This document shows, piece after piece, positions 3,386 through 41,411 of a stretch of DNA of 43,727 bases. This DNA comes from Thermoprotei archaeon. GTDB taxonomy: Archaea > Thermoproteota > Thermoprotei > QMSL01. The notes under the pieces were generated by a model. That model had not been told where the DNA came from. It saw only the letters and a program-made list of their open reading frames with translations, and did not search any database. The stretch is from assembly GCA_003650925.1 (NCBI GenBank), contig QMSP01000015.1, positions 1 through 43,727 on the forward strand, written 5' to 3'. Numbering within the stretch: position 1 is the stretch's first letter; every line of letters starts with the position of its first letter. The translations under genes and the position numbers were made by a program.

Positions 3386-3895
3386 ATGGTCAAAGCCCTA
3401 GGAGAAGTCCCTACAGGAACCTCAATCTTCATAGATGCGAACATATTCCATTTATACCTGAGAGGCCCCAGGCCCATCAGAGACGTCTGCACTATGTTCC
3501 TAGAAAGAATCGAAAAAGGAGAGATAAAGGGCTATACCTCCACACTAGTTCTAGACGAGCTAGCTTACAAACTACTACTGAGAAAAATTGAAGACCTATA
3601 TGGACGAAATCCATTAGAAGTATTAAGGGAAAGGCGGGAAGCCATAGCTCAAGCCACACCTTACGTTGAAGAAGGCCTTAACATAATACTTGGGATAAGA
3701 GGGTTGAAGATCCTAAGCATAGGACCCTCACATATAGCATACTTCACAGAGTACATGAAGAACTACTCATTATTACCAAGAGATGCCCTGCACTTAACTC
3801 TCATGATATCAATAGGTTGCAGAAACATAGCCTCAGCAGACAAAGACTTCGACACAGTCCCTTTCATCACCAGATGGTCGCCAATCAAAGAATAG
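3386..3895 (+). CDS. vapC: PIN-domain toxin (VapC-like RNase)
   Basis: The 169-residue protein starts with SIFIDANIFHLYLRG, in which the Asp is the first catalytic acid of the PIN domain. Further acids follow in STLVLDELAYKLLL (Glu), LLPRDALHLTLM (Asp) and ASADKDFDTV (Asp). These match the four-acid Mg-binding site of VapC RNases, which cut tRNA or rRNA. It is immediately downstream of the AbrB antitoxin gene and co-transcribed with it. The length is somewhat above the usual 130 residues owing to a longer central helix region (LRERREAIAQATPYVEEG). All catalytic positions appear intact. Confidence 0.87.
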   Translation: MVKALGEVPTGTSIFIDANIFHLYLRGPRPIRDVCTMFLERIEKGEIKGYTSTLVLDELAYKLLLRKIEDLYGRNPLEVLRERREAIAQATPYVEEGLNIILGIRGLKILSIGPSHIAYFTEYMKNYSLLPRDALHLTLMISIGCRNIASADKDFDTVPFITRWSPIKE

Positions 3896-3916
3896 TCCAC
3901 CTCTACCTCGCTCATC

Positions 3917-4030
3917 TCACAGTTTATCAATCAAATACTTCTCAATATGCCCTTCACCGTACTGGCAAGAATGACACTCTCGCATGCGTATTTCAAGCTC
4001 CGATAGGAATTTAGTGCCATAATCGAGCAC
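3917..4030 (-). CDS. Possible 37-residue ORF after the orphan AbrB gene
   Basis: A GTG-initiated frame begins 7 bp after the AbrB stop codon and reads LDYGTKFLSELEIRMRECHS followed by CQYGEGHIEKYLIDKL. It carries a C-x2-C pair but no second pair. It could be a small partner protein, or a leftover of the toxin that normally sits in this place. Evidence is limited to position and an amino-acid make-up that looks coding, so treat it as tentative. Confidence 0.3.
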   Translation of the reverse strand: MLDYGTKFLSELEIRMRECHSCQYGEGHIEKYLIDKL

Positions 4031-4037
4031 ATACGAC

Positions 4038-4259
4038 CTAGGCCTCAAGCCTCATTTCCTCCTCCTTGGCTTTCCTAACAATCTCCGATACCCTACCCTT
4101 CAATCTCACACGCTTGGGCACATAGGGTCTCAATATCAACCTATCTCCCTTCAACTCTAAGATAACTGACATGCCCTCCTCCAATCCTAATGCCTCTCTT
4201 AACCTCTTGGGAATAACAATGACCCCCTTCTTCCCAATCCTCGTTACAGTCACATCCAA
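4038..4259 (-). CDS. Orphan AbrB-type DNA-binding protein
   Basis: This 73-residue protein is almost entirely an AbrB domain: VTRIGKKGVIVIPKRLREAL, then GLEEGMSVILELKGDRLILR, and a short basic/acidic tail ending KAKEEEMRLEA. It matches antitoxins of VapBC pairs or stand-alone AbrB regulators. No PIN toxin gene follows; only a 37-codon frame and then the converging PIN gene are found. It may be an antitoxin that has lost its toxin or an independent regulator that cross-talks with the neighbouring AbrB-PIN pair. Confidence 0.8.
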   Translation of the reverse strand: MDVTVTRIGKKGVIVIPKRLREALGLEEGMSVILELKGDRLILRPYVPKRVRLKGRVSEIVRKAKEEEMRLEA

Positions 4260-4415
4260 GATATCACCTGGCAGTACTTGTTAGATGACGCTCATAAGTT
4301 TAACCAGACCCAAATTATGATTTGGGATATTCTTGTGGTCGGACTAGGCCTGTGGTCAGCTGAGACTTTAGAAAGTGTTCGGATAGATGTCAAGATCGAG
4401 GAATTCACATCAGCA

Positions 4416-5513
4416 CTATGATGTGTGCTTAATCAGAAAGTACCTCCTTGCCTGTGAGATCATGTCATAAGCCAAAGCGAACAACTCCTCAGGACAGCTC
4501 ATATAGAAGACGCCAACCTCATAATTCTTAAGCAGACTCCCCTTAGTAATATTAGCTGAGCCTAAGAAGGCAGAGCCCATAGAGGAACAGGAGAGCTTGG
4601 CATGAAGCCTATCAACAACATAAGCCCTAACTTCCACATCATACATAGAAGCACATCTTTTCACATGATCAATATCCCTCTCATTCCTCAACACGATGAT
4701 TATGTTCTCAAGCTTCTTGACATCATCCATAGGTTTCATAACATATTCAAGCATGCTATTAACCCAAGGCGATATCAGGATGAACTCATCCTTAGAATCT
4801 AACAAAGTCTGCTGATAAGCAACAAGAGCAGTGGGAGCGAAAGGAGCATTCCTGAGGACAAGAGTCCTAGCAACATCAATTCCTTCAAGAAGCTCAAGTC
4901 CCTCAAAGCTTAGATAAATTGAAGAGCCATCGATATCAACAAGTCCCAGCTCCCTGAGAAGAGGCACAAAGAAATTCCTAACAACAAAGCTATTATAAGG
5001 CTTTGCAAAAGGAACCCGCCTCCTACCACCCAAGGCCTTAAGCAAACCATATCTCTTCATCTTCATGCTATACTCCTTCATCTCACCTCCCAAGTCCCTT
5101 ATGATATCCCTGACCCTGACCTTCTTTCTACCAATATATCTAACAAGAGCCACAAAAGGTCTCCACTTGCACAAGACCCTGATTAAAGACCTCCTGAAGG
5201 ACTCATCATCCCTCATACTAGCGTACAATATGTGACATGTATTAGTAGGAACATATTCACCATCACCACGTATGCTTATAAGCCCCAAATGCCATAGAAG
5301 ACGCTCGATATAGTAAGCCTCACTAGCTCTCCTAAACCTAGGAGCATATCTCTCAATCAAAGCTCCTAAGGCATCTCGAGTAAGCTTACCCTTCTCGACC
5401 AGAGGCTTAATCACACACCTGAGCAAATCAAGACTGAACCATGCTATGCCATACGATTGAAGAAAGATCATCGAAGCCTCAAGATAGTTCATGAAATGCT
5501 TGCTACTACTCAT
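4416..5513 (-). CDS. Phospholipase-D-like protein with one HKD-type motif
   Basis: The 365-residue protein has two parts. Residues 1 to about 215 are helical with wHTH-like stretches (SEAYYIERLLWHLGLISIRG, LVDIDGSSIYLSFEGLELLE). Residues about 230-350 form a PLD half: DEFILISPWVNSMLEYVM, then RLHAKLSCSSMGSAFLGSAN. The latter is a HxKxxx...GSxN motif, the single-copy form seen in PLD-family nucleases that work as dimers, such as BfiI-type enzymes, and in helicase-associated nucleases. Substrate is unknown; a DNA-directed defence role is an inference. It stands alone, with no helicase or methyltransferase beside it. Start ATG 5513. Confidence 0.7.
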   Translation of the reverse strand: MSSSKHFMNYLEASMIFLQSYGIAWFSLDLLRCVIKPLVEKGKLTRDALGALIERYAPRFRRASEAYYIERLLWHLGLISIRGDGEYVPTNTCHILYASMRDDESFRRSLIRVLCKWRPFVALVRYIGRKKVRVRDIIRDLGGEMKEYSMKMKRYGLLKALGGRRRVPFAKPYNSFVVRNFFVPLLRELGLVDIDGSSIYLSFEGLELLEGIDVARTLVLRNAPFAPTALVAYQQTLLDSKDEFILISPWVNSMLEYVMKPMDDVKKLENIIIVLRNERDIDHVKRCASMYDVEVRAYVVDRLHAKLSCSSMGSAFLGSANITKGSLLKNYEVGVFYMSCPEELFALAYDMISQARRYFLIKHTS

Positions 5514-5762: not shown

Positions 5763-6008
5763 ATGGGAGTTCCCTTGAAGGTAGTCCAGACCAAGATTAG
5801 CAATATCGAATACGAACTACTGCGCAAATACGCCGAATCCAGAGGACTGACTATAATGGAGGCTTTGAGAGAAATCATCAGAAAGCATGTGCTAGAAGGA
5901 AGCATCGATCCAGATGACCCCATCTTCACAGAGGAGCCAGTCGTCAAGAGAAAAGGAATCAAAGAGAGAACCTCCATCGAGCATGATAAAATACTCTACG
6001 GTGAATGA
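5763..6008 (+). CDS. vapB: Ribbon-helix-helix-like antitoxin of a VapBC pair
   Basis: The 81-residue product begins MGVPLKVVQTKISNIEYELL, a beta strand followed by a helix, then RKYAESRGLTIMEALREIIR, which is the arrangement of ribbon-helix-helix antitoxins. The C-terminal half (IDPDDPIFTEEPVVKRKGIK and onward) is acidic and flexible, typical of a toxin-binding tail. The frame is open further upstream to 5652, but the TATA-like box at 5734-5742 argues for the ATG at 5763. Its stop overlaps the toxin start (ATGA at 6005-6008), so translation is probably coupled. Confidence 0.75.
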   Translation: MGVPLKVVQTKISNIEYELLRKYAESRGLTIMEALREIIRKHVLEGSIDPDDPIFTEEPVVKRKGIKERTSIEHDKILYGE

Positions 6009-6415
6009 CCATGATATTCATTGACACAAGCGCCTTCTACGCACTAGAGGTGGAGGATGATATTAACCATGAGCAAGCCAGATCCTTCCTCAATGAGCTA
6101 CGAAAAGGAAAATATGGAGCTCTACTCACATCCGATTATGTACTAGATGAAACCCTGACACTACTAAGGATAAGACATGGAGTTGAAGTTGCATTGAAAT
6201 TCTACGACAAGGTCAGACGAAGCCGCAGCCTCAGAATAATATGGGTTGATGAGACAATCTTCAACAAAGCCCTTGAACCATTCTCAAGAAACAACAAACT
6301 CAAATGGAGCTTCACAGACTGCGTAAGCTTCGCCATCATGAAGCTCCTCGACATTAAATATGCATTCACCTTCGACAAGAACTTCGAAGAAGCAGGCTTC
6401 ATCAAGCTGCCGTAG
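6005..6415 (+). CDS. vapC: PIN-domain toxin (VapC-like RNase)
   Basis: The 136-residue protein is a standard-length PIN domain: IFIDTSAFYALEVEDDINHE with the first catalytic Asp, SDYVLDETLTLLRIR with the conserved Glu, KWSFTDCVSFAIMKL with the third acid, and AFTFDKNFEEAGFIKLP with the last. All metal-binding positions are present, so an active Mg-dependent RNase is expected. It overlaps the RHH antitoxin by 4 bp. This subtype (FTDCVSFAIM, TFDKNFEEAGF) is common in thermophilic archaea. Confidence 0.88.
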   Translation: MTMIFIDTSAFYALEVEDDINHEQARSFLNELRKGKYGALLTSDYVLDETLTLLRIRHGVEVALKFYDKVRRSRSLRIIWVDETIFNKALEPFSRNNKLKWSFTDCVSFAIMKLLDIKYAFTFDKNFEEAGFIKLP

Positions 6416-11467: not shown

Positions 11468-11845
11468 TCATGGTCTTAACTTGCCTCTAACATAGCTCAG
11501 AAAGTTCCTCAGTATCTCATCTGGTCTATCTCCAAAGTCTCGCTCTACAATATGGTCTTCCGAGCCTTCATGAAAATGCTTGGGAAAAGTTGATAATTCT
11601 TGAGCTCTCCTATCTGGTATGTTATCGTATCTATATATCATCCCATCTATGCCTCTCCTCTCCCAATGAAATGCGAAAGTGTTAGGCCTTCTGATAGAGA
11701 ACCATACATCAATATAACTTCCATCTACTAGGAAAATACGTAGCTTATTTTCCAGGATCCTAGTATCCTTGACGATATCAGGGAATTCCATTAATGCTAT
11801 CATAGAAAGCTCTCTGTAAAGCTTGAATAGTTCCTGCAACTTCAC
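11468..11845 (-). CDS. TumE-type toxin (DUF6516-like)
   Basis: The 125-residue protein has the pattern of the TumE toxin family: IFLVDGSYIDVWFSIRRPNT for the central sheet, HWERRGIDGMIYRYDNIPD, and FPKHFHEGSEDHIV. The Tyr-Arg-x-Asp-Asn and H-x-H elements are the hallmark region. TumE proteins are toxins of a two-gene toxin-antitoxin system; the biochemical target is not settled as far as I know. It overlaps the antitoxin gene by 4 bp (ATGA at the minus-strand junction 11842-11845) and is translated after it. Family assignment is by motif, not search. The second TumE-like gene in this window at 37695-38078 strengthens the call. Confidence 0.78.
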   Translation of the reverse strand: MKLQELFKLYRELSMIALMEFPDIVKDTRILENKLRIFLVDGSYIDVWFSIRRPNTFAFHWERRGIDGMIYRYDNIPDRRAQELSTFPKHFHEGSEDHIVERDFGDRPDEILRNFLSYVRGKLRP

Positions 11846-12129
11846 TTAGAGTCCCTCAGAAGCCTCAAAATCTCCTCCAACCTAGCCTCAAGATATTCAA
11901 GCCTCATCAGGTCATTCAAGCACTCAGACTCCGTCAACTCACCAGCCTCTATCTTCCTCCACAACTCCTCCGAAGAATGGACTCCATACTTGGAGCCTAT
12001 CCTGTCGATCTCAATCCTAACATTCCTCAACTCATTCTCTAGAAAAAGCCTAATACCCTCTCTCAACACAACCTCCTTAGGAACTCCCAGCCTCTCAGCC
12101 ACTTCCTCAAGACTCAACGCCTCACCCAT
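11842..12129 (-). CDS. TumA-type antitoxin
   Basis: This 95-residue protein starts with a short helix-turn-helix-like segment (LSLEEVAERLGVPKEVVLRE), then a helical hairpin (IRIEIDRIGSKYGVHSSEEL, WRKIEAGELTESECLNDLMR) and a final helix rich in Leu/Glu (LEYLEARLEEILRLLRDSK). The hairpin pattern recurs in the partner of the second TumE-like gene at 38106-38426. The gene is first in the operon, as expected of an antitoxin, and shares the ATGA overlap with the toxin gene. Start ATG 12129 follows no strong Shine-Dalgarno motif. Confidence 0.75.
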   Translation of the reverse strand: MGEALSLEEVAERLGVPKEVVLREGIRLFLENELRNVRIEIDRIGSKYGVHSSEELWRKIEAGELTESECLNDLMRLEYLEARLEEILRLLRDSK

Positions 12130-15901: not shown

Positions 15902-17230
15902 GTGATATACTCTGAAGAGAGAGTACATTTCACATTCGAGATATTTAAACGCCTAGAGAGAGAGTTAAGCTCAAAATGTAATACTCGATTCCTATACACA
16001 CATAACTTCGAAAAAGTGATAAATCCGAGATATGCAAAGAAGGTGCCTATTCACAGATGGTACATTCTTAAAGAAAGCTATTCCCCCTACTTAATAGAGG
16101 AACTTGTAAAGGCAAAAGTTGTGAGAATGCCTACAAAGGGAGTGCTTGATCCCTTCGTAGGTGCAGGCTCCACCCTCCTAGGCAGTCAATGGATAGGTAC
16201 ACCCTCAATAGGCGTAGATATAGTGCCGTTCTTCTGTTTAGTTTCTAAGGTCAAGACCTTGTGGAAATCATATAATATAAAAGTTCTTAAGGAGATCTAC
16301 GAGAAGGTAAGAAGACTTGATGTGGAGAAGGAGCCTAATCTTGGATTTCCTACTCTTTCGACATTTTCGAGAGTCTACGATGCAAGAATATTAAGGGAAT
16401 TACTTGTTATCAAAGAGTTTATCCTTGACTTAAACAAGGACCTAGAATTATATAAGGATTTATTGAAAGTTGTACTTGCCTCTATATTAGAACCTACGAG
16501 TAGGGCAAAGAAGAATGGAAAAGGATTAAAAATTGTTAGAAAAGGTCCTTTAGAGAAACCGAAGAACGCCTTCCTTAGGAAATTGGAAGAGGTCATAAAT
16601 GATCTAAGTGTAGTACACTATTTCCTTAGACCTAAATATGCAAGCGCGAAGGTACTAAATGACGATGCACGTCAATTAGGCAAAGTACCGAAGGGTGAAA
16701 CAGACCTAGTGGTTTTCTCTCCGCCCTATCTAAACACATTTGACTACACAGAAGTATATAAGCTTGAACTATGGTTCCTTGATTTTGTAAAAAGCAGAAA
16801 TGAATGGTATGAGTTAAGAAGAAAGACATTTAGGAGTCATAATCTTGCAAAATGGGCAAGAACAGAGTACTGGTCACACGAGGTGCTTAATAAGATTGAG
16901 GATTACTTAAGAAAACAAGAACTATGGTGTGAAGAAATACCTATCATTGTAAGGGGTTACTTTGATGATATGTATCTAACATTAAAGGCACTCTATGAAG
17001 TAACATACGATGAATGTTGTGTAGTCATAATAGTGGGTAATTCAGCTTATGGCGGGATAATAATACCAGTTGATTTACTAATTATGAGGAGTGCTCTTGA
17101 GGTGGGTTTTATACCTGAAAAGCTACTAATAGTACGCGAGTTAGGTACATCATCTCAACAACTTAGGTTATTGAGGAGAGATATGAGGAAATTACTCAGA
17201 GAGAGTATAATTGTGCTTCGCAAAAGGTAG
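15902..17230 (+). CDS. DNA amino-methyltransferase (N4-cytosine or N6-adenine)
   Basis: The 442-residue protein has the S-adenosylmethionine-binding motif I, GVLDPFVGAGSTLLGS, at about residues 80-95 and the catalytic motif IV, VVFSPPYLNTFDYTEVYKLE, at about residues 270-288. SPPY is used by exocyclic-amino methyltransferases, often N4-cytosine ones. Motif I precedes motif IV with about 180 residues between them, which probably hold the target-recognition region. The GTG start follows GGGGTTAGG. It is followed by a predicted restriction enzyme and so should protect the host genome at the same site. Which base is methylated cannot be read from the sequence. Confidence 0.85.
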   Translation: MIYSEERVHFTFEIFKRLERELSSKCNTRFLYTHNFEKVINPRYAKKVPIHRWYILKESYSPYLIEELVKAKVVRMPTKGVLDPFVGAGSTLLGSQWIGTPSIGVDIVPFFCLVSKVKTLWKSYNIKVLKEIYEKVRRLDVEKEPNLGFPTLSTFSRVYDARILRELLVIKEFILDLNKDLELYKDLLKVVLASILEPTSRAKKNGKGLKIVRKGPLEKPKNAFLRKLEEVINDLSVVHYFLRPKYASAKVLNDDARQLGKVPKGETDLVVFSPPYLNTFDYTEVYKLELWFLDFVKSRNEWYELRRKTFRSHNLAKWARTEYWSHEVLNKIEDYLRKQELWCEEIPIIVRGYFDDMYLTLKALYEVTYDECCVVIIVGNSAYGGIIIPVDLLIMRSALEVGFIPEKLLIVRELGTSSQQLRLLRRDMRKLLRESIIVLRKR

Positions 17231-17306: not shown

Positions 17307-18026
17307 TTGGTGAGCTTCGATCCGAAAAAGAAATATGACGAAGTAGTTAGTGAGAGATATGATGGGAATTATGTAAGAGCACTCGAGGATTTTGAAAATA
17401 TAGCCGAGAGCATAATAAGACCTAAATTCACAGAGCATTTAGAGAGGCTAGGTAGATCAAGACGAAGTATAGACCAATCATGGCGTAATAGAAAGGGAAG
17501 ACTTTATGAGTATGCAGTAATTCAGGCTCTAAGAAGCATGATCGGGCAAGATGAAAAACTAAAGAGTAGGTTGTCAGTTCTAGGAAAACGCGAGATAAAG
17601 CAAAGCGTAAGGGATAAGGTAGCGATTAGGAACTGGAGCAAAGTATATCCTGATGTGGATATACTAATTCTTGACGACAAGGAGAATAAAGTCATTGCTA
17701 TAATATCATGTAAAACTAGCCTTAGAGAGAGACTCACCGAAACAGCTTATTGGAAATATGAATTAATAAAACATGAAAATACAAAGGATGTAAAGGTACT
17801 TTTCATAACTACTGATAAAGATGAGGAGCTTCAGGAGGATGTAAATAGATATATAGCTATGCATGTTATAGACTGCACATTCATAACTGACCTGCAAAAG
17901 TACAACAAATTGATGAGCTGCTACAAAACATTATATGGATCAAGGGAAGATTTTAATATAATTAAGGATAAAATTCGACCATTCCATGAAATTATATGTT
18001 ATCTAAATAGCATAATCGGTGACTGA
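17307..18026 (+). CDS. Type II restriction endonuclease, BsaWI/CCGG-family-like
   Basis: The 239-residue protein has a PD-(D/E)xK core: WSKVYPDVDILIL around residues 110-122 and VIAIISCKTSLRERLTETAY around residues 129-148. A helix with a conserved Glu (WRNRKGRLYEYAVIQAL) precedes it. The K-T-S-x-R-(D/E)-R segment matches BsaWI, in which R-D-R contacts the CCGG core, so a CCGG-containing site is a reasonable prediction, not a result. The gene is 76 bp after the methyltransferase gene and on the same strand, forming a type II restriction-modification pair. The start is TTG 17307 or the adjacent GTG 17310; AAGGG lies just upstream. Confidence 0.75.
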   Translation: MVSFDPKKKYDEVVSERYDGNYVRALEDFENIAESIIRPKFTEHLERLGRSRRSIDQSWRNRKGRLYEYAVIQALRSMIGQDEKLKSRLSVLGKREIKQSVRDKVAIRNWSKVYPDVDILILDDKENKVIAIISCKTSLRERLTETAYWKYELIKHENTKDVKVLFITTDKDEELQEDVNRYIAMHVIDCTFITDLQKYNKLMSCYKTLYGSREDFNIIKDKIRPFHEIICYLNSIIGD

Positions 18027-18089: not shown

Positions 18090-18494
18090 GTGTATTGGTT
18101 ATGTGTTACTAGGCAAGAGAACTGGGAAGTAATAAAGAAGAGGAGAATTTGGGGCGTATCAGAAAGACAGAGGAAGAGCATTAATCAAACGAAACCTGAT
18201 GATATACTAGTGTTTTACGTAATTCCAAAAAAGATAACTGGCATATATCGTGTCGTATCTTATCCTTATGAAGAACAAAAGGCCCTCTTTCCAGAAGGTG
18301 GAATGTATCCATACAGAGTCAAAATAGAACCACTTATCATACTAAAGGAACCAAAGGATTTTACACCACTCATCTCACTACTGTCCATAACTAGAGGTAA
18401 AAAGAACTGGAATGCTATACTACAAAGAGTCATGATTAAAATGGATGAAAATGATTTTAGGATAATTCAAGAATATCTAAGGAAAGATCCATGA
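18090..18494 (+). CDS. EVE-domain protein
   Basis: At 134 residues this is a single EVE domain (PUA-like fold). Seen are MYWLCVTRQENWEVIKKRRI, the WGVSER motif, KPDDILVFYVIPKKITGIYR, and MYPYRVKIEPLIILKEPKDF in the family order. EVE domains bind modified bases in a cage of aromatic residues and are found in defence genes, including modification-dependent restriction. It lies 64 bp after the restriction enzyme on the same strand, with a TATA-like GATTATATTTG at 18066-18076. It may read the methylated base set by the methyltransferase two genes upstream, which is an inference from proximity. Start GTG 18090. Confidence 0.82.
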   Translation: MYWLCVTRQENWEVIKKRRIWGVSERQRKSINQTKPDDILVFYVIPKKITGIYRVVSYPYEEQKALFPEGGMYPYRVKIEPLIILKEPKDFTPLISLLSITRGKKNWNAILQRVMIKMDENDFRIIQEYLRKDP

Positions 18495-19768: not shown

Positions 19769-21130
19769 GTGAGGGAAGTGTTTGGAGTGACAAGCACTCA
19801 CTACAATAAATCAACTATAATGGACATTGAAGATTATATGGGGAGTGTATTAAAGGAAGGAGCTAGCTGTATTGAAGAGCTTCTATTAGCTCTTGATGCT
19901 CTTTATCCAAGAAAGAAAAACCTTATACTAAGGGAGCTAGAGAAGTATCCCCTACTGCAATATCTGATAAAGAATTTTAGAAATTTTGCATTAAAAAGTT
20001 ATTCAAAAACTGCTATACTTCTATCGCAGGAAATATTGAGTCCTCTCATAGGTAGTGAATTTAGAGTACCATTGGATGTGAGTGAATTAGAAGATGAAAT
20101 TACAAAACTTGACCTAGACCTCTATGCTCTGTTATCATACATAGCACTGAGAGAAGCATATCACAATAAATCATTAAAAAATTTAGAGGTGTTAATTAAG
20201 CTAGCCGAGGTCATAATTGACAAGATAGGCGATAAAGAGCAGTTTAGATCACTCCGAATAGGCATGTACTTCTACATTTATGCAGTTAAAAGACATACTG
20301 CCCTGAAGGAGGCACTTGAAAAGAACCTTAAGGAAGCTTTAGAACTTTACAGAAAAAGAATTCTCAGTTTTACTGAAACCTGTGCTCTATTTAATGTACT
20401 ATACGATATTTACAACGATATCCAAGATAACGCTTCATTAAGAAGAGAGCTCGAAAATATTGATATTATGCTAGCTAATATGGCGTCCTATATTTACAAT
20501 AATTATCATGACCATCTACAGCAAATGTACTCACAATTTAGTGAATCTAGTGAATTAGTTAGAGAATTCTATGCAGGTGAAGAGTTAATATTTTCATGGA
20601 TAATGCCCTCGATAACCGAAATATACCATGTAGTTCGCGCAAAGAGAATTCTTGAGAAGTACTTCTTAATGATACCTTGCCTTAATGTTCTTAGGGAAAT
20701 CTCTGAGACCTTCATGCTCCCTTATTCAATTCTCAAACTTATACTATGGATGGAGTACCAATTACTCAGAATTGAACATGTTACATTAGACTTCTTGCTA
20801 AAGCACTCCAATATGCTAGCCATAGTTCTAACTGCGATACTGATATTCGAACCCTTACTGAAACTGACATCACTGCTGGCTTCTCTATTAAGATTCCCAT
20901 TAATACCCCCTCTGTTAGTTATCGAGAGGTATGTCCCTGTATTCTCTGCATCTATTTTCTCTTTAATTATTGCAAAATATATAATAAAGGAACTTCATAA
21001 AAGAGTGGCAGATAAGTTACGTGCCAAGATAGTGAATCGTCTAGAGAACAAACTCAAGAGTGTTAAAATAAAAATCGAGATTCTACACGCAATGCTTGGT
21101 GGAGTATATCCTCAGATTGTTCAGTCCTAG
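19769..21130 (+). CDS. Large helical membrane protein, convergent with the Argonaute genes
   Basis: The 453-residue protein has about 330 residues of charged helices (SVLKEGASCIEELLLALDAL; ALKEALEKNLKEALELYRKR). Two hydrophobic segments follow: MLAIVLTAILIFEPLLKLTS at about 345-365 and YVPVFSASIFSLIIAKYIIK at about 385-405. The tail is basic and cytoplasmic (VADKLRAKIVNRLENKLKSV). The stop lies 14 bp from the stop of the PIWI-type gene in convergent orientation. I do not recognise a family. Membrane effectors accompany several inactive Argonautes, so it is a candidate partner, but it would need its own promoter. Start GTG 19769, with ATG 19820 as an alternative. Confidence 0.65.
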   Translation: MREVFGVTSTHYNKSTIMDIEDYMGSVLKEGASCIEELLLALDALYPRKKNLILRELEKYPLLQYLIKNFRNFALKSYSKTAILLSQEILSPLIGSEFRVPLDVSELEDEITKLDLDLYALLSYIALREAYHNKSLKNLEVLIKLAEVIIDKIGDKEQFRSLRIGMYFYIYAVKRHTALKEALEKNLKEALELYRKRILSFTETCALFNVLYDIYNDIQDNASLRRELENIDIMLANMASYIYNNYHDHLQQMYSQFSESSELVREFYAGEELIFSWIMPSITEIYHVVRAKRILEKYFLMIPCLNVLREISETFMLPYSILKLILWMEYQLLRIEHVTLDFLLKHSNMLAIVLTAILIFEPLLKLTSLLASLLRFPLIPPLLVIERYVPVFSASIFSLIIAKYIIKELHKRVADKLRAKIVNRLENKLKSVKIKIEILHAMLGGVYPQIVQS

Positions 21131-21144
21131 CGTCCTCTTTAACT

Positions 21145-22470
21145 TCATATGAACCACAATCTTGAGCTCCTCATTACTTTGGGAACTTGAAGTTCTTTCC
21201 ACCTTTCGACTATTTTCGCTGATAAATATTGCAATGATGCTACGAGGAAAGCCAGTCGCCTAGTGTATCGGGTACTTATAGGTTCTCTTATTCTAGTACT
21301 CATTGTATGCCAATGTAATCTAGTTAGCACCAAAATATCCTTGGCAACTTCATAGAGTACTCTTTCCTCATTAATGTTGGTATCAACAATATCCACTTTT
21401 AGACATCTAGGCATACCAACGGGGTGATAGTACTTTTTGTCATCGATTATTATAGCACCACCTGTCGTTAGAATTCCCTCTATATTCGACAATTTTATCA
21501 GGCAAGATTTGGGAGGGTAATAATCATATATAGGTGAGAATGCCCTGTATATGGTATCATCCCTCACCGTGACCACAGTGTAATATGCCTGAATAGGTAG
21601 AACGTCCAATACCCCCTTTATGGTCTCTACCTCGCTCTTGCTTGGTCTCTTTCCAGAATAGTGAATTGACACAGTGATTTTCTCTCTTTCTTCCCTCATG
21701 AACTCTTGTGCAAGGGATGTTAAGGATTCATAAAGTAGTTTACCAAATCTTTCTCTAAATTCTTCTTTATTCTCGAATACAATACTCATGAAATCCTTGA
21801 ATACTGGATATGTCGTATATCTGTATATGCTGAATGCTCCTATATACCTAGAATCGATTGGTAGGCTCTTTTCGTATATTCTCACCATAGTTGTAGCTAT
21901 TCCTATCACTATATCACTCCTTGGTTGCATACTAGGTATCCATGGAACACCTCCTAGCTTCGTGAAAATGGCAAGTGCGATATTTTCTATGGACATCCTA
22001 TAGCTACTTAGTGCGTTTTCTGTAATGTATTGCGAAACTATGTAATCTCGACATACTATTTTTAGAGCATAATAAGGAGACATTTTGTACCATCTTGGAG
22101 TTCTCCTACCGAAGACAAGCATAACAGGTGAGCGATTCCATTGTTTTTCCTCCTTAAGGCATGAGCTCTTAATATCAATAAGCTTTTCAATTACACTATG
22201 AAGGTCTTTATCATCAACAATTATAGGCTCATCCCTCTTTCTTACTATTACATGAAGGTCGTAAGTGTCTCTTAGTACTCTAGCTATATCATTACATATC
22301 TCCATAGCTTTATTACGTAATTCGTCAGAGGCACTTTCCAATACTATGGGATATAATGCTACAGCACGGCAAGGAGGAGATACGTAGGGTTTACATCTTT
22401 TCACATATATAGGGTAATAACCCTTACCCTCTCTAAACGTTAGGATTATCTCAGGAAACTGTATAATCAC
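21145..22470 (-). CDS. Argonaute MID-PIWI subunit, PIWI catalytic residues apparently lost
   Basis: The 441-residue protein is the C-terminal half of a long prokaryotic Argonaute. The MID domain keeps the guide 5'-end pocket pattern: Tyr133/134 and Lys137 in PYYALK, Gln147 in VSQYITENAL, and Lys171 in FTKLGGVPW. The PIWI domain starts at SDIVIGIATT, where the usual catalytic Asp of IGID is Ala192. The second Asp, normally in H-R-D-G, is Ser272 in IHYSGK. The fourth site reads RYTRRLAFL with no clear acid. The C-terminus LWFI is typical of Argonautes, so the domain is full length but unlikely to slice. The start overlaps the upstream subunit's stop by 4 bp. Confidence 0.85.
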   Translation of the reverse strand: MIIQFPEIILTFREGKGYYPIYVKRCKPYVSPPCRAVALYPIVLESASDELRNKAMEICNDIARVLRDTYDLHVIVRKRDEPIIVDDKDLHSVIEKLIDIKSSCLKEEKQWNRSPVMLVFGRRTPRWYKMSPYYALKIVCRDYIVSQYITENALSSYRMSIENIALAIFTKLGGVPWIPSMQPRSDIVIGIATTMVRIYEKSLPIDSRYIGAFSIYRYTTYPVFKDFMSIVFENKEEFRERFGKLLYESLTSLAQEFMREEREKITVSIHYSGKRPSKSEVETIKGVLDVLPIQAYYTVVTVRDDTIYRAFSPIYDYYPPKSCLIKLSNIEGILTTGGAIIIDDKKYYHPVGMPRCLKVDIVDTNINEERVLYEVAKDILVLTRLHWHTMSTRIREPISTRYTRRLAFLVASLQYLSAKIVERWKELQVPKVMRSSRLWFI

Positions 22471-23534
22471 AAAGAACCACCTCCTATCTCCTTAAAGGTA
22501 GATCTAAATCTTATTCTTACGTTATCCAGATATATATTATTCATTACCTCTATCCACACTGTCGCCAATTTCTGCGTTATGCGGTAATATTCCTCGGCAA
22601 GTGTACGACCTTTATATCTCCCTTGCCTCCTTAATTCATCGAATTCCTTATAACCTATGTCAAGAGTTACCTCTCTTCTCTTTTGTTGGAGCTCTTCGTA
22701 AGACTCGCCTATTTGCGCCAATATATGTTTATAGTATTCGAATTTCCCAAGTAGCTTAATGCGTGAAAGTGGTACTTCGAGGAGAGAGCCATCATAAAAT
22801 TCTACTATAGCACTTCTAGCTTTCATGTCAATTCTCCTTAACACGGCCTGTTTATAGATTTCCCCTAGAGGGCAAAGACGAGGTGCTTTACAATAAATAC
22901 CTTCTAACATCTTTGACTCCACATAATGTGATAATTCTTCCATGGTACAACTATCGATCACAAGCTTGGGTTTTATTAACACAAACCATTTGTCGTGTAT
23001 GTGTGCGTAGCGAATTTCAAAACCTCTATATAGTTTAAAGATCTTAGATAGGGACAACTCTTCACTAGGAGAGTAATAAATATAGAGTCCTAAGCTTCTA
23101 AATCCTCTATTCTCAAGAACTCTCCTTGTAGCCGAGTATAATAGGGATTTAACTATCTCGTTTGAGATTTCGATATCTCTTCTTTTCATGTGTACATTAT
23201 TTTCTTCAAATATACTCCCTAAATGTTCCATATAGTCGTTAGCCTCATTAATATCGATAATCTGCTCCTCTCTTCCTACTTTACCCATTATCAAATTGTA
23301 CTGTATTGAGTATTTCTTATTATGAACTTGTAGTCTAGACCTTAGCGAGTATACTATGTTCCAAGGTAGGTTATCCCTGAACTCCTTGAACTTTCCTACG
23401 ATCTCTGACAGTCTAGTAATATGGTCTTCATGTTTTATCACGATGTTTATAAGTCCTATTATTTCCTTATCTGAGAACTCTACCTCTACAGCGTTCAATT
23501 TCACTTCAATGTTGTTGGCAAAGGGTGGTTTCAT
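22467..23534 (-). CDS. Argonaute N-PAZ-L2 subunit (separate gene)
   Basis: The 355-residue protein matches the N-terminal half of a long Argonaute. Residues 1 to about 160 would be the N and L1 domains. A reduced PAZ-like domain spans about 168-265: FKLYRGFEIRYAHIHDKWFV, LIKPKLVIDSCTMEEL, then SAIVEFYDGSLLEVPLSRIK. Residues 270-355 correspond to L2, with a long helix (ESYEELQQKRREVTLDIGYK). PAZ seems to lack its second subdomain, as in long-B Argonautes. It is encoded immediately before the MID-PIWI gene with a 4-bp overlap, so the two are almost certainly made together as a heterodimer. A TATA-like box on the minus strand lies at 23561-23568. Confidence 0.8.
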   Translation of the reverse strand: MKPPFANNIEVKLNAVEVEFSDKEIIGLINIVIKHEDHITRLSEIVGKFKEFRDNLPWNIVYSLRSRLQVHNKKYSIQYNLIMGKVGREEQIIDINEANDYMEHLGSIFEENNVHMKRRDIEISNEIVKSLLYSATRRVLENRGFRSLGLYIYYSPSEELSLSKIFKLYRGFEIRYAHIHDKWFVLIKPKLVIDSCTMEELSHYVESKMLEGIYCKAPRLCPLGEIYKQAVLRRIDMKARSAIVEFYDGSLLEVPLSRIKLLGKFEYYKHILAQIGESYEELQQKRREVTLDIGYKEFDELRRQGRYKGRTLAEEYYRITQKLATVWIEVMNNIYLDNVRIRFRSTFKEIGGGSL

Positions 23535-23560: not shown

Positions 23561-23568
23561 TATTTATT
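23561..23568 (-). promoter_or_regulatory. TATA-like box of the split Argonaute operon
   Basis: On the minus strand the sequence GAATAAATAGG (plus-strand TATTTATT at 23561-23568) is centred about 31 nt before ATG 23534. No Shine-Dalgarno motif precedes that ATG, consistent with a leaderless mRNA for the two Argonaute genes. Confidence 0.5.
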
Positions 23569-23724
23569 CTCTAAGTCTCAGTTGAAGTAAGCCTTGTATA
23601 ATTAACAATCTAAAGACAACAAGCGCCAACGCCTACATTTAATGGATTTAGAAGAGCCATGCCGTGTAGATCAAGTTACATTTTAAATGTTCCTAGGCTG
23701 TAACGGATGAGACGGTGATTATTG

Positions 23725-30841: not shown

Positions 30842-31600
30842 ATGACTGTCAAGGACCGTCAACTTGAGCTATTCAAGGTAGTAATGGATATCTCAGCAGA
30901 AAAGGGTCCTCTCAGTATCTACGCTATAGCCAAGGAAGCCTCTGAAAGGCTCGGCGAGGATATGCATAAGGTCAGGATGCGTATAATGCGTCTCATAGAT
31001 AAGTTGGAGGCCTTAGGCATGGTGAAAGTGACTCGTGGTCCAAGGAATGCCAAGTTAGTTGACTTATCTCCCAAAGGCTTGGGTATAGATGTACAATTTA
31101 GGTTTTACAAGCTTTTCAAGCCATGCACTTCGAGAGATATATTAACCTTGACAGGCATGTTATCCTGCTACAAAAGAGCTACCCTAAAGAAACTCGTTAG
31201 GGAGGGGTCAATACCTGGGATAGCTCTAAAAATGCCTGAGCTCGCTGAGAAAATACTAAATGCTATAAAGAAAAGCCTAGAGGATAGAGAATTCGAATAT
31301 GAAATGGAACTTACTAGTGATGCCGACATTATAGCCTACAATGAAGTAGCAGACTGGATAGCAGATATCATGAGTGACATTAGCACGGAAGAGCTATATA
31401 GCTCTACTCTAAATCCTCAATTCCTAAAGCAACATTTAATTGCTATATTCAAGGAGGCCAATCTTACAGAGGAGGACATTAGGCTTTTAAGTTATACAAC
31501 TAAGGAGGAGCAACGTTACCATATGTTCTTGGCTAAGATATGCGGTACGATTCATGAAGCTCTTAATGAGCTTAAGGAGGAGTCTATACATGAATGCTGA
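30842..31600 (+). CDS. Winged-helix regulator, probable antitoxin of RelE
   Basis: From ATG 30842 the product has 252 residues. Residues 1 to about 75 form a MarR-like winged helix: ELFKVVMDISAEKGPLSIYA, IAKEASERLGEDMHKVRMRI, then LEALGMVKVTRGPRNAKLVD. The rest is helical (SRDILTLTGMLSCYKRATLK; LKQHLIAIFKEANLTEEDIR). The frame opens upstream at 30806, but the TATA-like element at 30811-30820 supports the ATG. The gene overlaps the RelE toxin start by 11 bp (ATGAATGCTGA), indicating coupled translation. A large wHTH protein is an unusual RelE partner, and a role as antitoxin and repressor is inferred from position. Confidence 0.7.
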   Translation: MTVKDRQLELFKVVMDISAEKGPLSIYAIAKEASERLGEDMHKVRMRIMRLIDKLEALGMVKVTRGPRNAKLVDLSPKGLGIDVQFRFYKLFKPCTSRDILTLTGMLSCYKRATLKKLVREGSIPGIALKMPELAEKILNAIKKSLEDREFEYEMELTSDADIIAYNEVADWIADIMSDISTEELYSSTLNPQFLKQHLIAIFKEANLTEEDIRLLSYTTKEEQRYHMFLAKICGTIHEALNELKEESIHEC

Positions 31601-31887
31601 GTGGAGGATTGTTGTCACTAGGAGCCTCCTTAAGGAGCTTAAAAGAAGAGGTATAACATCGAGGATTCTGGGAAAGCTAAAAGAACTTAGTCAAGAGTTA
31701 AGTGAAGAACCTGAGAGGGTGCTTGAAGCGCTTATGAAGGAGCCTACAATCTTTGATCTCGAGGGATTTAAGGTGAGAAGATTGAGGATAGGTAGTTATC
31801 GCCTCTTCTACATAATTGATCATGAAAGGAGGCTTGTCATCTTTTTTTGATGTTAAGCCTCGTGAGAGAGCTTATAGGAGAAGATAA
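31590..31887 (+). pseudogene. relE: RelE-family toxin, frameshifted at a run of seven T
   Basis: The reading WRIVVTRSLLKELKRRGITS, then FDLEGFKVRRLRIGSYRLFY and IIDHERRLVIFF is a RelE/ParE-type toxin (ribosome-dependent mRNA interferase or gyrase-type fold). The zero frame stops at TGA 31848-31850, right after T7 at 31842-31848. With six T the frame continues DVKPRERAYRR to TAA 31885-31887, which is the expected RelE C-terminus. So the gene is one T out of frame. Polymerase slippage on the T-run could restore it in part of the transcripts. Ribosome binding site AAGGAGGAG lies upstream of ATG 31590. The gene is otherwise complete. Confidence 0.82.
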
Positions 31888-37694: not shown

Positions 37695-38078
37695 TTATGG
37701 ATTCAAGGAGGCTGAGGATGATTTCTGCTGTATTAGCCTTTTCACATGAGTGAGGAATTCTCTTAATGATGGAGTTGTAAGGGGTTCTATTCTTCCATCT
37801 CTGTGTCTATGGTGGGGATGGGTTGGTATTTCTGGATGGTGTGGTCTATTGTTCCACCATTCTTCATAACTTCCTATTCTTAGGTAATAGCCATAGGCTA
37901 TGATATCGCTTCCTCTTAGATATTCTCGCAATCTGAGGATGACATCCCTTTCGATGATTACGTCCACGCTAAGATACTCTGTATCATCGTCTATGCGGTG
38001 CTCTCTAACTGTGACTCTTGGGTTGAGGTTCTTTAATATGGATTCGATGAGTTCTAGGACGTAGTTTAGTCTTGTCAA
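37695..38078 (-). CDS. TumE-like toxin, last gene of a protease operon
   Basis: The 127-residue product has DVIIERDVILRLREYLRGSD, IIAYGYYLRIGSYEEWWNNR and PHHPEIPTHPHHRHRDGRIE. The R-P-H-H and P-H-H-x-H elements occupy the place of the Asp-Asn-x-x-H / F-P-x-H-x-H region in TumE proteins. It is a divergent relative of the TumE-type gene at 11468. A helical tail (REFLTHVKRLIQQK) follows. It lies 27 bp downstream of a TumA-like gene, and both lie behind a serine protease gene on the same strand. The assignment to the TumE family is by pattern and is less sure than for the first copy. Confidence 0.65.
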   Translation of the reverse strand: MTRLNYVLELIESILKNLNPRVTVREHRIDDDTEYLSVDVIIERDVILRLREYLRGSDIIAYGYYLRIGSYEEWWNNRPHHPEIPTHPHHRHRDGRIEPLTTPSLREFLTHVKRLIQQKSSSASLNP

Positions 38079-39533: not shown

Positions 39534-39938
39534 TCATGCTAGGTCACGAGGATGTCTATATTTGAGACCAACAATTGTACTGTACGCCTTCTCATCAAAG
39601 CTCACAAGCTCCAAATCTTCAACCAAAGCTACAGCAGCGTGCAGGCTATCGAAATACGTGAGGCCATGCTGTGTCCTGAGCTTATGGGCCTTAGCGAAGT
39701 GTAGAGGCCTAGGCTTGACTATCCGGATTTTGTACTGCTCCAATGCGCTATTCAGCTTACGCCAAAACATGATATAGTCCTTAACAACTATGACCCCAGA
39801 CTTGATCAACAAGTCCATCTCAATGAGCGCGTATGGAGACAAGGCAATTCTGTGTTCTGCAAGTATCTTCCTTGCGATACTATGACCGGGATCCTCAGGA
39901 TCCATGGCTGCAATAAGCATATCGGTCTCAACAAGCAT
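39534..39938 (-). CDS. vapC: PIN-domain toxin (VapC-like RNase)
   Basis: The 134-residue protein begins MLVETDMLIAAMDPEDPGHS, where Asp6 is the first catalytic acid. It continues with YALIEMDLLIKSG (Glu), LTYFDSLHAAVALVEDLELV (Asp) and SFDEKAYS (Asp). The ETD in place of DTN or DTS at the start is a known variant of archaeal PIN toxins. The remaining metal-binding acids are present, so activity is plausible. The gene overlaps its AbrB antitoxin by one base (TGATG). Confidence 0.85.
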   Translation of the reverse strand: MLVETDMLIAAMDPEDPGHSIARKILAEHRIALSPYALIEMDLLIKSGVIVVKDYIMFWRKLNSALEQYKIRIVKPRPLHFAKAHKLRTQHGLTYFDSLHAAVALVEDLELVSFDEKAYSTIVGLKYRHPRDLA

Positions 39939-40333: not shown

Positions 40334-41134
40334 ATGGATATCATGAGCAGGATTAGGAGGAGAGGGAGAGATCATAAGGAGAAGCTAGTTGACTTACTTC
40401 TCCTATCCTACCTGATCATAGATGCGTATAGTAGGGGGAAGGCCATCAGAGAGGAGACTAGGCTTCAGAAGCTTGTGTTTCTTGCTGAGAGAATGATGCT
40501 TGCTAGAAAGATTAAGGCCTTTAACTATAACTTCGTTCGTCTGATCTTCGGGCCTTATTCTGATGAGCTGCGAAGGGATCTGGCTCTTCTACTGGAATGT
40601 GGCATATTACGTGATGATCCTCGTGAGGGGTTGGTTCCTACAGAGAAGGGTTTGGAGCTTGTGAAGCTGATGAATGATGTCTTGCATAGACATGGGGAGG
40701 TCATTGATATAATACATAACGTTAATGAAGAGTATGCTGATATTCCGCTTGATAGACTCCTTGAATATGTCTATAGTCTGAGGAGACCTCTTAAGGGCCC
40801 AAGGATGAGAATCAGGGATGTGAGGATAAGGACACCATTGTTGAAGAGAATCACCAGGGAGAGAGCTCGTCTTGTCTTCGAAATTCCCGGTGAAGCTATA
40901 AGGATTCTAGAGGTATACTTCGACCCTGACGTGGAGGAGATAGTGCGTGAGCAGGTTAAGGGGTATGAAGTCCTATTGCTGAAGCATAGAGGCGAAGCAG
41001 GATATACTGCTATTGTGCCTAAACTAACGGGGTGTATAAGCGAGGGAGTTACAAAAGAAGAGGCCTTGAAGAATTTATCTGAAGCGATAGATTTATACCT
41101 AGAGGTGAGGCAAGAAGAAATCTGTGGCAGGTAG
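40334..41134 (+). CDS. hicB: Panacea-HicB fusion, antitoxin of HicA
   Basis: The 266-residue protein has two domains. Residues about 10-125 resemble the Panacea/SocA-type antitoxin domain: TRLQKLVFLAERMMLARKIK, FNYNFVRLIFGPYSDELRRD and LVPTEKGLELVKLMNDVL. Residues about 205-262 are a HicB domain: YEVLLLKHRGEAGYTAIVPK, LTGCISEGVTKEEALKNLSE, AIDLYLEV. HicB normally neutralises HicA, and Panacea domains neutralise many unrelated toxins, so a protein with both is striking. The stop overlaps the HicA start by 11 bp. No DNA-binding domain of the usual HicB type is visible besides the Panacea helices, which could take on that role. ATG 40334. Confidence 0.75.
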   Translation: MDIMSRIRRRGRDHKEKLVDLLLLSYLIIDAYSRGKAIREETRLQKLVFLAERMMLARKIKAFNYNFVRLIFGPYSDELRRDLALLLECGILRDDPREGLVPTEKGLELVKLMNDVLHRHGEVIDIIHNVNEEYADIPLDRLLEYVYSLRRPLKGPRMRIRDVRIRTPLLKRITRERARLVFEIPGEAIRILEVYFDPDVEEIVREQVKGYEVLLLKHRGEAGYTAIVPKLTGCISEGVTKEEALKNLSEAIDLYLEVRQEEICGR

Positions 41135-41411
41135 GGCAGCGAAATTACCAGTACTCTCAGGTGATGAACTAAATAAGGTACTCGCCGACTTATGCTTTAG
41201 ACACGTCAGGACTAAGGGATCACACAAGGTGCTAGAGAGGGGAAAGCACATCCTAGTAGTTCCTTTGCATAGAGAGCTAAAAAGAGGAACCCTTAAGGAG
41301 ATAGTTAAGGCCTATGCTAGGATTCTGAATATATCGTACGAGGAGGCGAGGAAGTTGCTAGTCGATAGGAGACTTAGGAGGAGATGTAGAAGCTTTCTTT
41401 GTCCTAGGTAA
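41124..41411 (+). CDS. hicA: HicA-family mRNA interferase toxin
   Basis: The product (95 residues, GTG start at 41124) contains LPVLSGDELNKVLADLCFRH, then VRTKGSHKVLERGKHILVVP and LHRELKRGTLKEIVKAYARI. G-S-H with the catalytic His and the double-stranded-RNA-binding-type fold are the hallmarks of HicA. A basic tail follows (RRLRRRCRSFLCPR). HicA usually has about 60-75 residues, so the tail is an addition. It overlaps the upstream Panacea-HicB gene by 11 bp. No damage is visible. Confidence 0.83.
   Translation: MAGRAAKLPVLSGDELNKVLADLCFRHVRTKGSHKVLERGKHILVVPLHRELKRGTLKEIVKAYARILNISYEEARKLLVDRRLRRRCRSFLCPR

Follow-up and report, generated by a model that had tools for sequence, protein, structure and literature searches.

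The stretch of DNA analysed here, referred to as the window, comprises 43,727 nucleotides and is contig 15 of a 2.14 Mb assembly from an archaeon that shares its class with genome G050 (contig L102, Thermoprotei archaeon). Two genes on the minus strand form a unit: the first one encodes a protein of 355 aa (22467..23534, ATG start), and it overlaps by 4 bp (GTGA) with the gene for a protein of 441 aa (21145..22470, GTG start). This is exactly the two-gene layout that the first-pass annotation had described for the locus. A TATA-like sequence, AATAAATA, is located on the same strand about 28 nt upstream of the ATG of the 355-aa gene (approximately 23563..23570); it was picked out by eye and is a possible promoter of the two-gene unit. 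Facing the 441-aa gene tail-to-tail, an open reading frame for a 453-aa protein (19769..21130, plus strand) ends 14 bp from the 3' end of the Argonaute gene. For none of these three proteins did Pfam and NCBIfam give anything usable.

Beyond the 453-aa gene, a row of three genes on the strand opposite to the Argonaute encodes a methyltransferase (15902-17230), a BsaWI-like restriction endonuclease (17307-18026; Pfam, E=2.5e-27) and an EVE-domain protein (18090-18494), likely a restriction-modification set. Defence-type genes abound in the window. Those of toxin-antitoxin type are found at 539-1479, 3386-3895, 6005-6415, 11468-12129, 31554-31850, 37695-38078, 39534-39938 and 40334-41411: HEPN-MNT, PIN-domain genes (three in the window), TumE-type toxins (two), HicA (with a HicB-like domain) and a ParE-like gene. 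A NERD gene is present as well. With this abundance of toxin-antitoxin genes, the window is a defence or plasticity island.

The two Argonaute halves

The 441-aa protein is an Argonaute, with matches well above chance. The PADLOC pAgo model PDLC02436 matches it with E=9e-40 over model positions 7-447 of 460, and a phmmer search of the PDB returned AfAgo (E=7e-9) and EcAgo (E=4e-7), even though Pfam holds no match for this protein. The top PDB matches of a profile built from 12 Argonaute sequences were EcAgo, RsAgo and AfAgo. Four residues of the 5'-guide pocket, Y133, K137, Q147 and K171, are invariant in all 12 sequences and represent a YK-type MID pocket; Y134, which had been listed with them in the first-pass annotation, is not conserved. 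In an alignment with Argonautes that possess the catalytic residues, A192 stands in place of the first Asp and S272 in place of the Asp of the H-R-D-G motif, as had been read from the sequence before, and a further, previously unnamed position, the fourth of the tetrad, is occupied by R404. This comparison rests on three positions of the tetrad, as the alignment of the Glu finger is not confident. The same three columns hold D, D, and H or D in L102, L070, L077 and the second Argonaute of the same genome. The PIWI domain of the 441-aa protein is thus predicted to be catalytically inactive and devoid of the DEDX tetrad. The IHYSGK motif around S272 is common to the Argonautes of L038, L130 and L074, and the version in AfAgo reads HVSGK.

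In an Argonaute tree, the kind of placement that had been proposed earlier as a check, the MID-PIWI half belongs to the long-B clade as judged from its sequence: the node that joins it with EcAgo, RsAgo, AfAgo and the split archaeal Argonautes has a support of 98/96, and the Argonautes with catalytic Asp residues fall outside. Within the clade, the branch of the window Argonaute is long, with 2.2 changes per column. It groups weakly (72/12) with L038, L130 and L074, the last of which comes from the same order as the window archaeon, and it shares only about 23-25% identity with the Argonautes of L038 and L130. Plasmids and phages searched with the window Argonaute gave no match, and neither a single-protein scan of genome contigs nor a scan of viral contigs found a relative. 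An alignment of six rows was too divergent to serve as a search query and was dropped.

The 355-aa protein is the other half of the same Argonaute, with the order N-L1-PAZ*-L2, as several profile comparisons indicate. A two-row profile made from this protein and its nearest relative retrieved the genes directly upstream of the split Argonautes in L066, L068 and L072, and it also reached the N-terminus of the single-chain Argonaute encoded in the same genome (E=3e-5). Upon iteration with trimmed rows, the profile spans residues 8-338 of single-chain Argonautes of 741-749 aa. Similarly, hhalign with the single 355-aa sequence against the upstream N halves of the co-directional group (L066/L093/L094/L095) gave E=5e-7. 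The only meaningful PDB matches of the N-half family profile were to residues 86-189 of TtAgo (best E=0.004). The first-pass annotation had described an N-terminal half of the PAZ type; the domain order stands, and the PAZ label is correct only for a shortened version: the PAZ-equivalent stretch has 78 residues as compared to 99-104 in two single-chain Argonautes, the alignment reveals no KEYY/F motif, and the stretch is therefore designated PAZ*. An AlphaFold model of the N half based on five sequences was too poor to use (mean pLDDT 33).

The convergent membrane gene and related loci

The 453-aa protein has a predicted helical N-terminal part of about 340 residues, followed by three hydrophobic helices (342-360, 367-385 and 388-406) in the hydropathy profile. 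A model computed from the single sequence is all helical and too poor to use (pLDDT 48), and a fold search with this low-confidence model gave no match below E=0.3. The layout with at least two predicted transmembrane helices confined to the C-terminal 40% of the protein is present in most Argonaute partners and in 2 of 229 background open reading frames of similar size, with cut-offs that were set after looking at the data. At the level of sequence, the 453-aa protein is not similar to the other sets of Argonaute-linked membrane proteins, and these sets are mutually dissimilar as well. No convincing relative was found in 398 genomes; matches to open reading frames of about 341 aa in one genus (E 0.002-0.009) were judged to be chance helical matches. 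Since the effectors differ in sequence between the groups, the link between the 453-aa protein and the Argonaute rests on place and layout. By these two properties, which recall Aga2 and bAgaM, the protein is likely the effector of the split Argonaute, a partner that the first-pass annotation had overlooked. As it is encoded on the opposite strand, the genes do not form one operon.

A pair of genes for an N half and an Argonaute, in this order, recurs in L066, L067/L094, L068, L093, L095, L038, L130 and L074, and a gene for a transmembrane protein is located beside most of them. The position of this gene varies between the groups: in L038, L130 and L074 (3 of 3), the pair faces a convergent transmembrane gene at the 3' end of the Argonaute gene, in the next group, which includes L066 and L093, the transmembrane gene lies behind the Argonaute gene in the same orientation, and L071 and L073 have it ahead of the N half. 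The contig of L093 is filed under Dehalococcoides sp. JdFR-56, so that an operon of N half, Argonaute and transmembrane gene appears inside an otherwise archaeal clade, due either to a binning error or to transfer. In L038 (genome G228), a gene upstream of the split Argonaute (3715-4596) overlaps the N-half gene and resembles, by its sequence, an N-terminal HTH domain combined with an HExxH (HEVAH) metallopeptidase; its product might regulate the Argonaute genes.

The genome of the window archaeon encodes a second Argonaute (L037, 944-3193; genome G000, contig 18), a single chain of 749 aa with D-D-D at the three tested positions of the tetrad. As the window Argonaute has lost these residues, one cell combines a probable slicer with a split Argonaute that is dead. 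Split Argonautes of another kind are present in the same class or phylum: L072 2-2238, L042 2-2151 (a fragment), L102 803-2071 and 4072-5274, and L070 47-1297 and 4885-6087. In their MID-PIWI halves, the tetrad positions are still occupied by Asp, Asp and His or Lys, as verified in L070, L072 and L102, and the N half is encoded by an overlapping upstream gene or by a separate gene that can even be oppositely oriented. Published work on Argonaute splitting covers long-B and short pAgos (PMC10954474), and catalytically intact split Argonautes may therefore be less described than the dead long-B kind.

Discussion

Split Argonautes of the long-B type have an established literature. Several independent splits of long-B pAgos have been described, and the split proteins may have or lack PAZ* (PMC10954474). 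Thus, the suggestion in the first-pass annotation that a PAZ-bearing split is little described fails: the architecture is already published. The window departs from the published systems in two respects: its membrane gene is convergent and has no relatives that could be detected by sequence, and its Argonaute has a long branch. Long-B systems with a transmembrane partner are known as BPAM, for which abortive infection has been proposed (PMC10620215), and further biology of this kind of system is published as well (PMC11084316).

We consider it probable that this is a defence locus of the SiAgo-Aga1-Aga2/BPAM kind, built around a long-B Argonaute that is split and catalytically dead, in which the sensor triggers the 453-aa membrane protein. 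As suggested by the characterized relatives, the 355-aa and 441-aa proteins would assemble into one guide-loaded sensor, and the guide, presumably RNA, would pair with the nucleic acid of an invader, presumably DNA. The non-cutting sensor may then activate or release the convergently encoded 453-aa protein, which would compromise the membrane and provoke an abortive response that ends in cell death. All the sequence evidence agrees with the earlier proposal of a guide-binding, non-slicing heterodimer that triggers a further effector, and the gene adjoining that of the Argonaute is a candidate for this effector; it is the novelty attached to this proposal that did not hold.

Two archaeal systems come close to this arrangement. 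The three-protein abortive infection system SiAgo-Aga1-Aga2 of Sulfolobus islandicus has an inactive MID-PIWI protein, an N half encoded by a gene of its own and a nearby membrane protein (PMC10954474). It is likened to the window system by description, and the likely relatives in L038 and L130 have transmembrane proteins unlike that of the window. The Archaeoglobus fulgidus pair AfAgo/AfAgo-N, which had been named as the precedent before, is indeed a relative of the window Argonaute, but with SiAgo/Aga1/Aga2 as a second one it is not the sole precedent. It is also a two-gene Argonaute with an inactive PIWI domain in which H-x-S-G-K replaces H-R-D-G, and its locus contains an SiAga2-like neighbour gene, Af1317, just as a membrane gene adjoins the window Argonaute. 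However, AfAgo-N has 250 aa and is devoid of PAZ, whereas the N half of the window has 355 aa and a shortened PAZ stretch; moreover, Af1317 lies downstream of AfAgo in the same direction, whereas the membrane gene of the window is convergent. The BPAM systems also combine an inactive long-B Argonaute with an adjacent transmembrane protein (PMC10620215), but their pAgo is long, single-chain and encoded upstream of the transmembrane gene in one operon. Finally, the short pAgos of SPARTA and SPARSA are two-chain inactive Argonautes that act via an effector, as we propose for the window. In these systems, an APAZ protein that is often fused to the effector takes the place of the N half, whereas the window N half has the PAZ* stretch but lacks an effector domain, and the window PIWI falls into the long-B clade.

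Alternatively, the split inactive Argonaute could be real and the 453-aa gene an unrelated neighbour, with the effector encoded elsewhere or with silencing by mere binding of invader nucleic acid, similar to RsAgo. The opposite orientation of the 453-aa gene and its dissimilarity to the other Argonaute-linked transmembrane proteins fit this idea, as does the existence of some long-B pAgos, a minority, that lack a partner in their operon (PMC10620215). Nevertheless, we regard it as rather unlikely: the tail-to-tail spacing is tight and the same arrangement occurs in L038, L130 and L074, and the C-terminal transmembrane layout matches the Argonaute partners and is rare in the background. In a variation of the preferred proposal that we regard as doubtful, the 453-aa protein would represent a new family of Argonaute-controlled membrane effectors, unrelated in sequence to the others and transcribed as a separate unit, which would allow sensor and killer to be regulated independently; guides for the dead split Argonaute could come from the second one, whose catalytic Asp residues are in place.

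Two further explanations seem very improbable to us. The locus might be a decaying remnant, an Argonaute broken in two and without function. This would agree with the long branch and the loss of the catalytic residues, but both frames are open, their overlap of 4 bp is typical of translationally linked genes, the residues of the guide pocket are intact, and many genomes retain the two-gene architecture. Equally remote is the idea that the methyltransferase, the BsaWI-like endonuclease and the EVE protein supply an effector nuclease for the Argonaute, and we have rejected it: these nuclease and defence genes lie in the same window at a distance of 3-5 kb, but they are a self-contained set on the other strand with two genes between the set and the Argonaute, and such a pairing was absent from all relatives examined.

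With the sensor-effector system that we favour, the range of split long-B Argonautes with PAZ* grows by another uncultured lineage of the Thermoproteota, on a long branch. Moreover, the comparison of the related loci suggests that the effector gene holds its place and its membrane layout while its sequence changes so far that it can no longer be recognized. If this is the case, such effectors are to be found by their position and membrane topology rather than by similarity.
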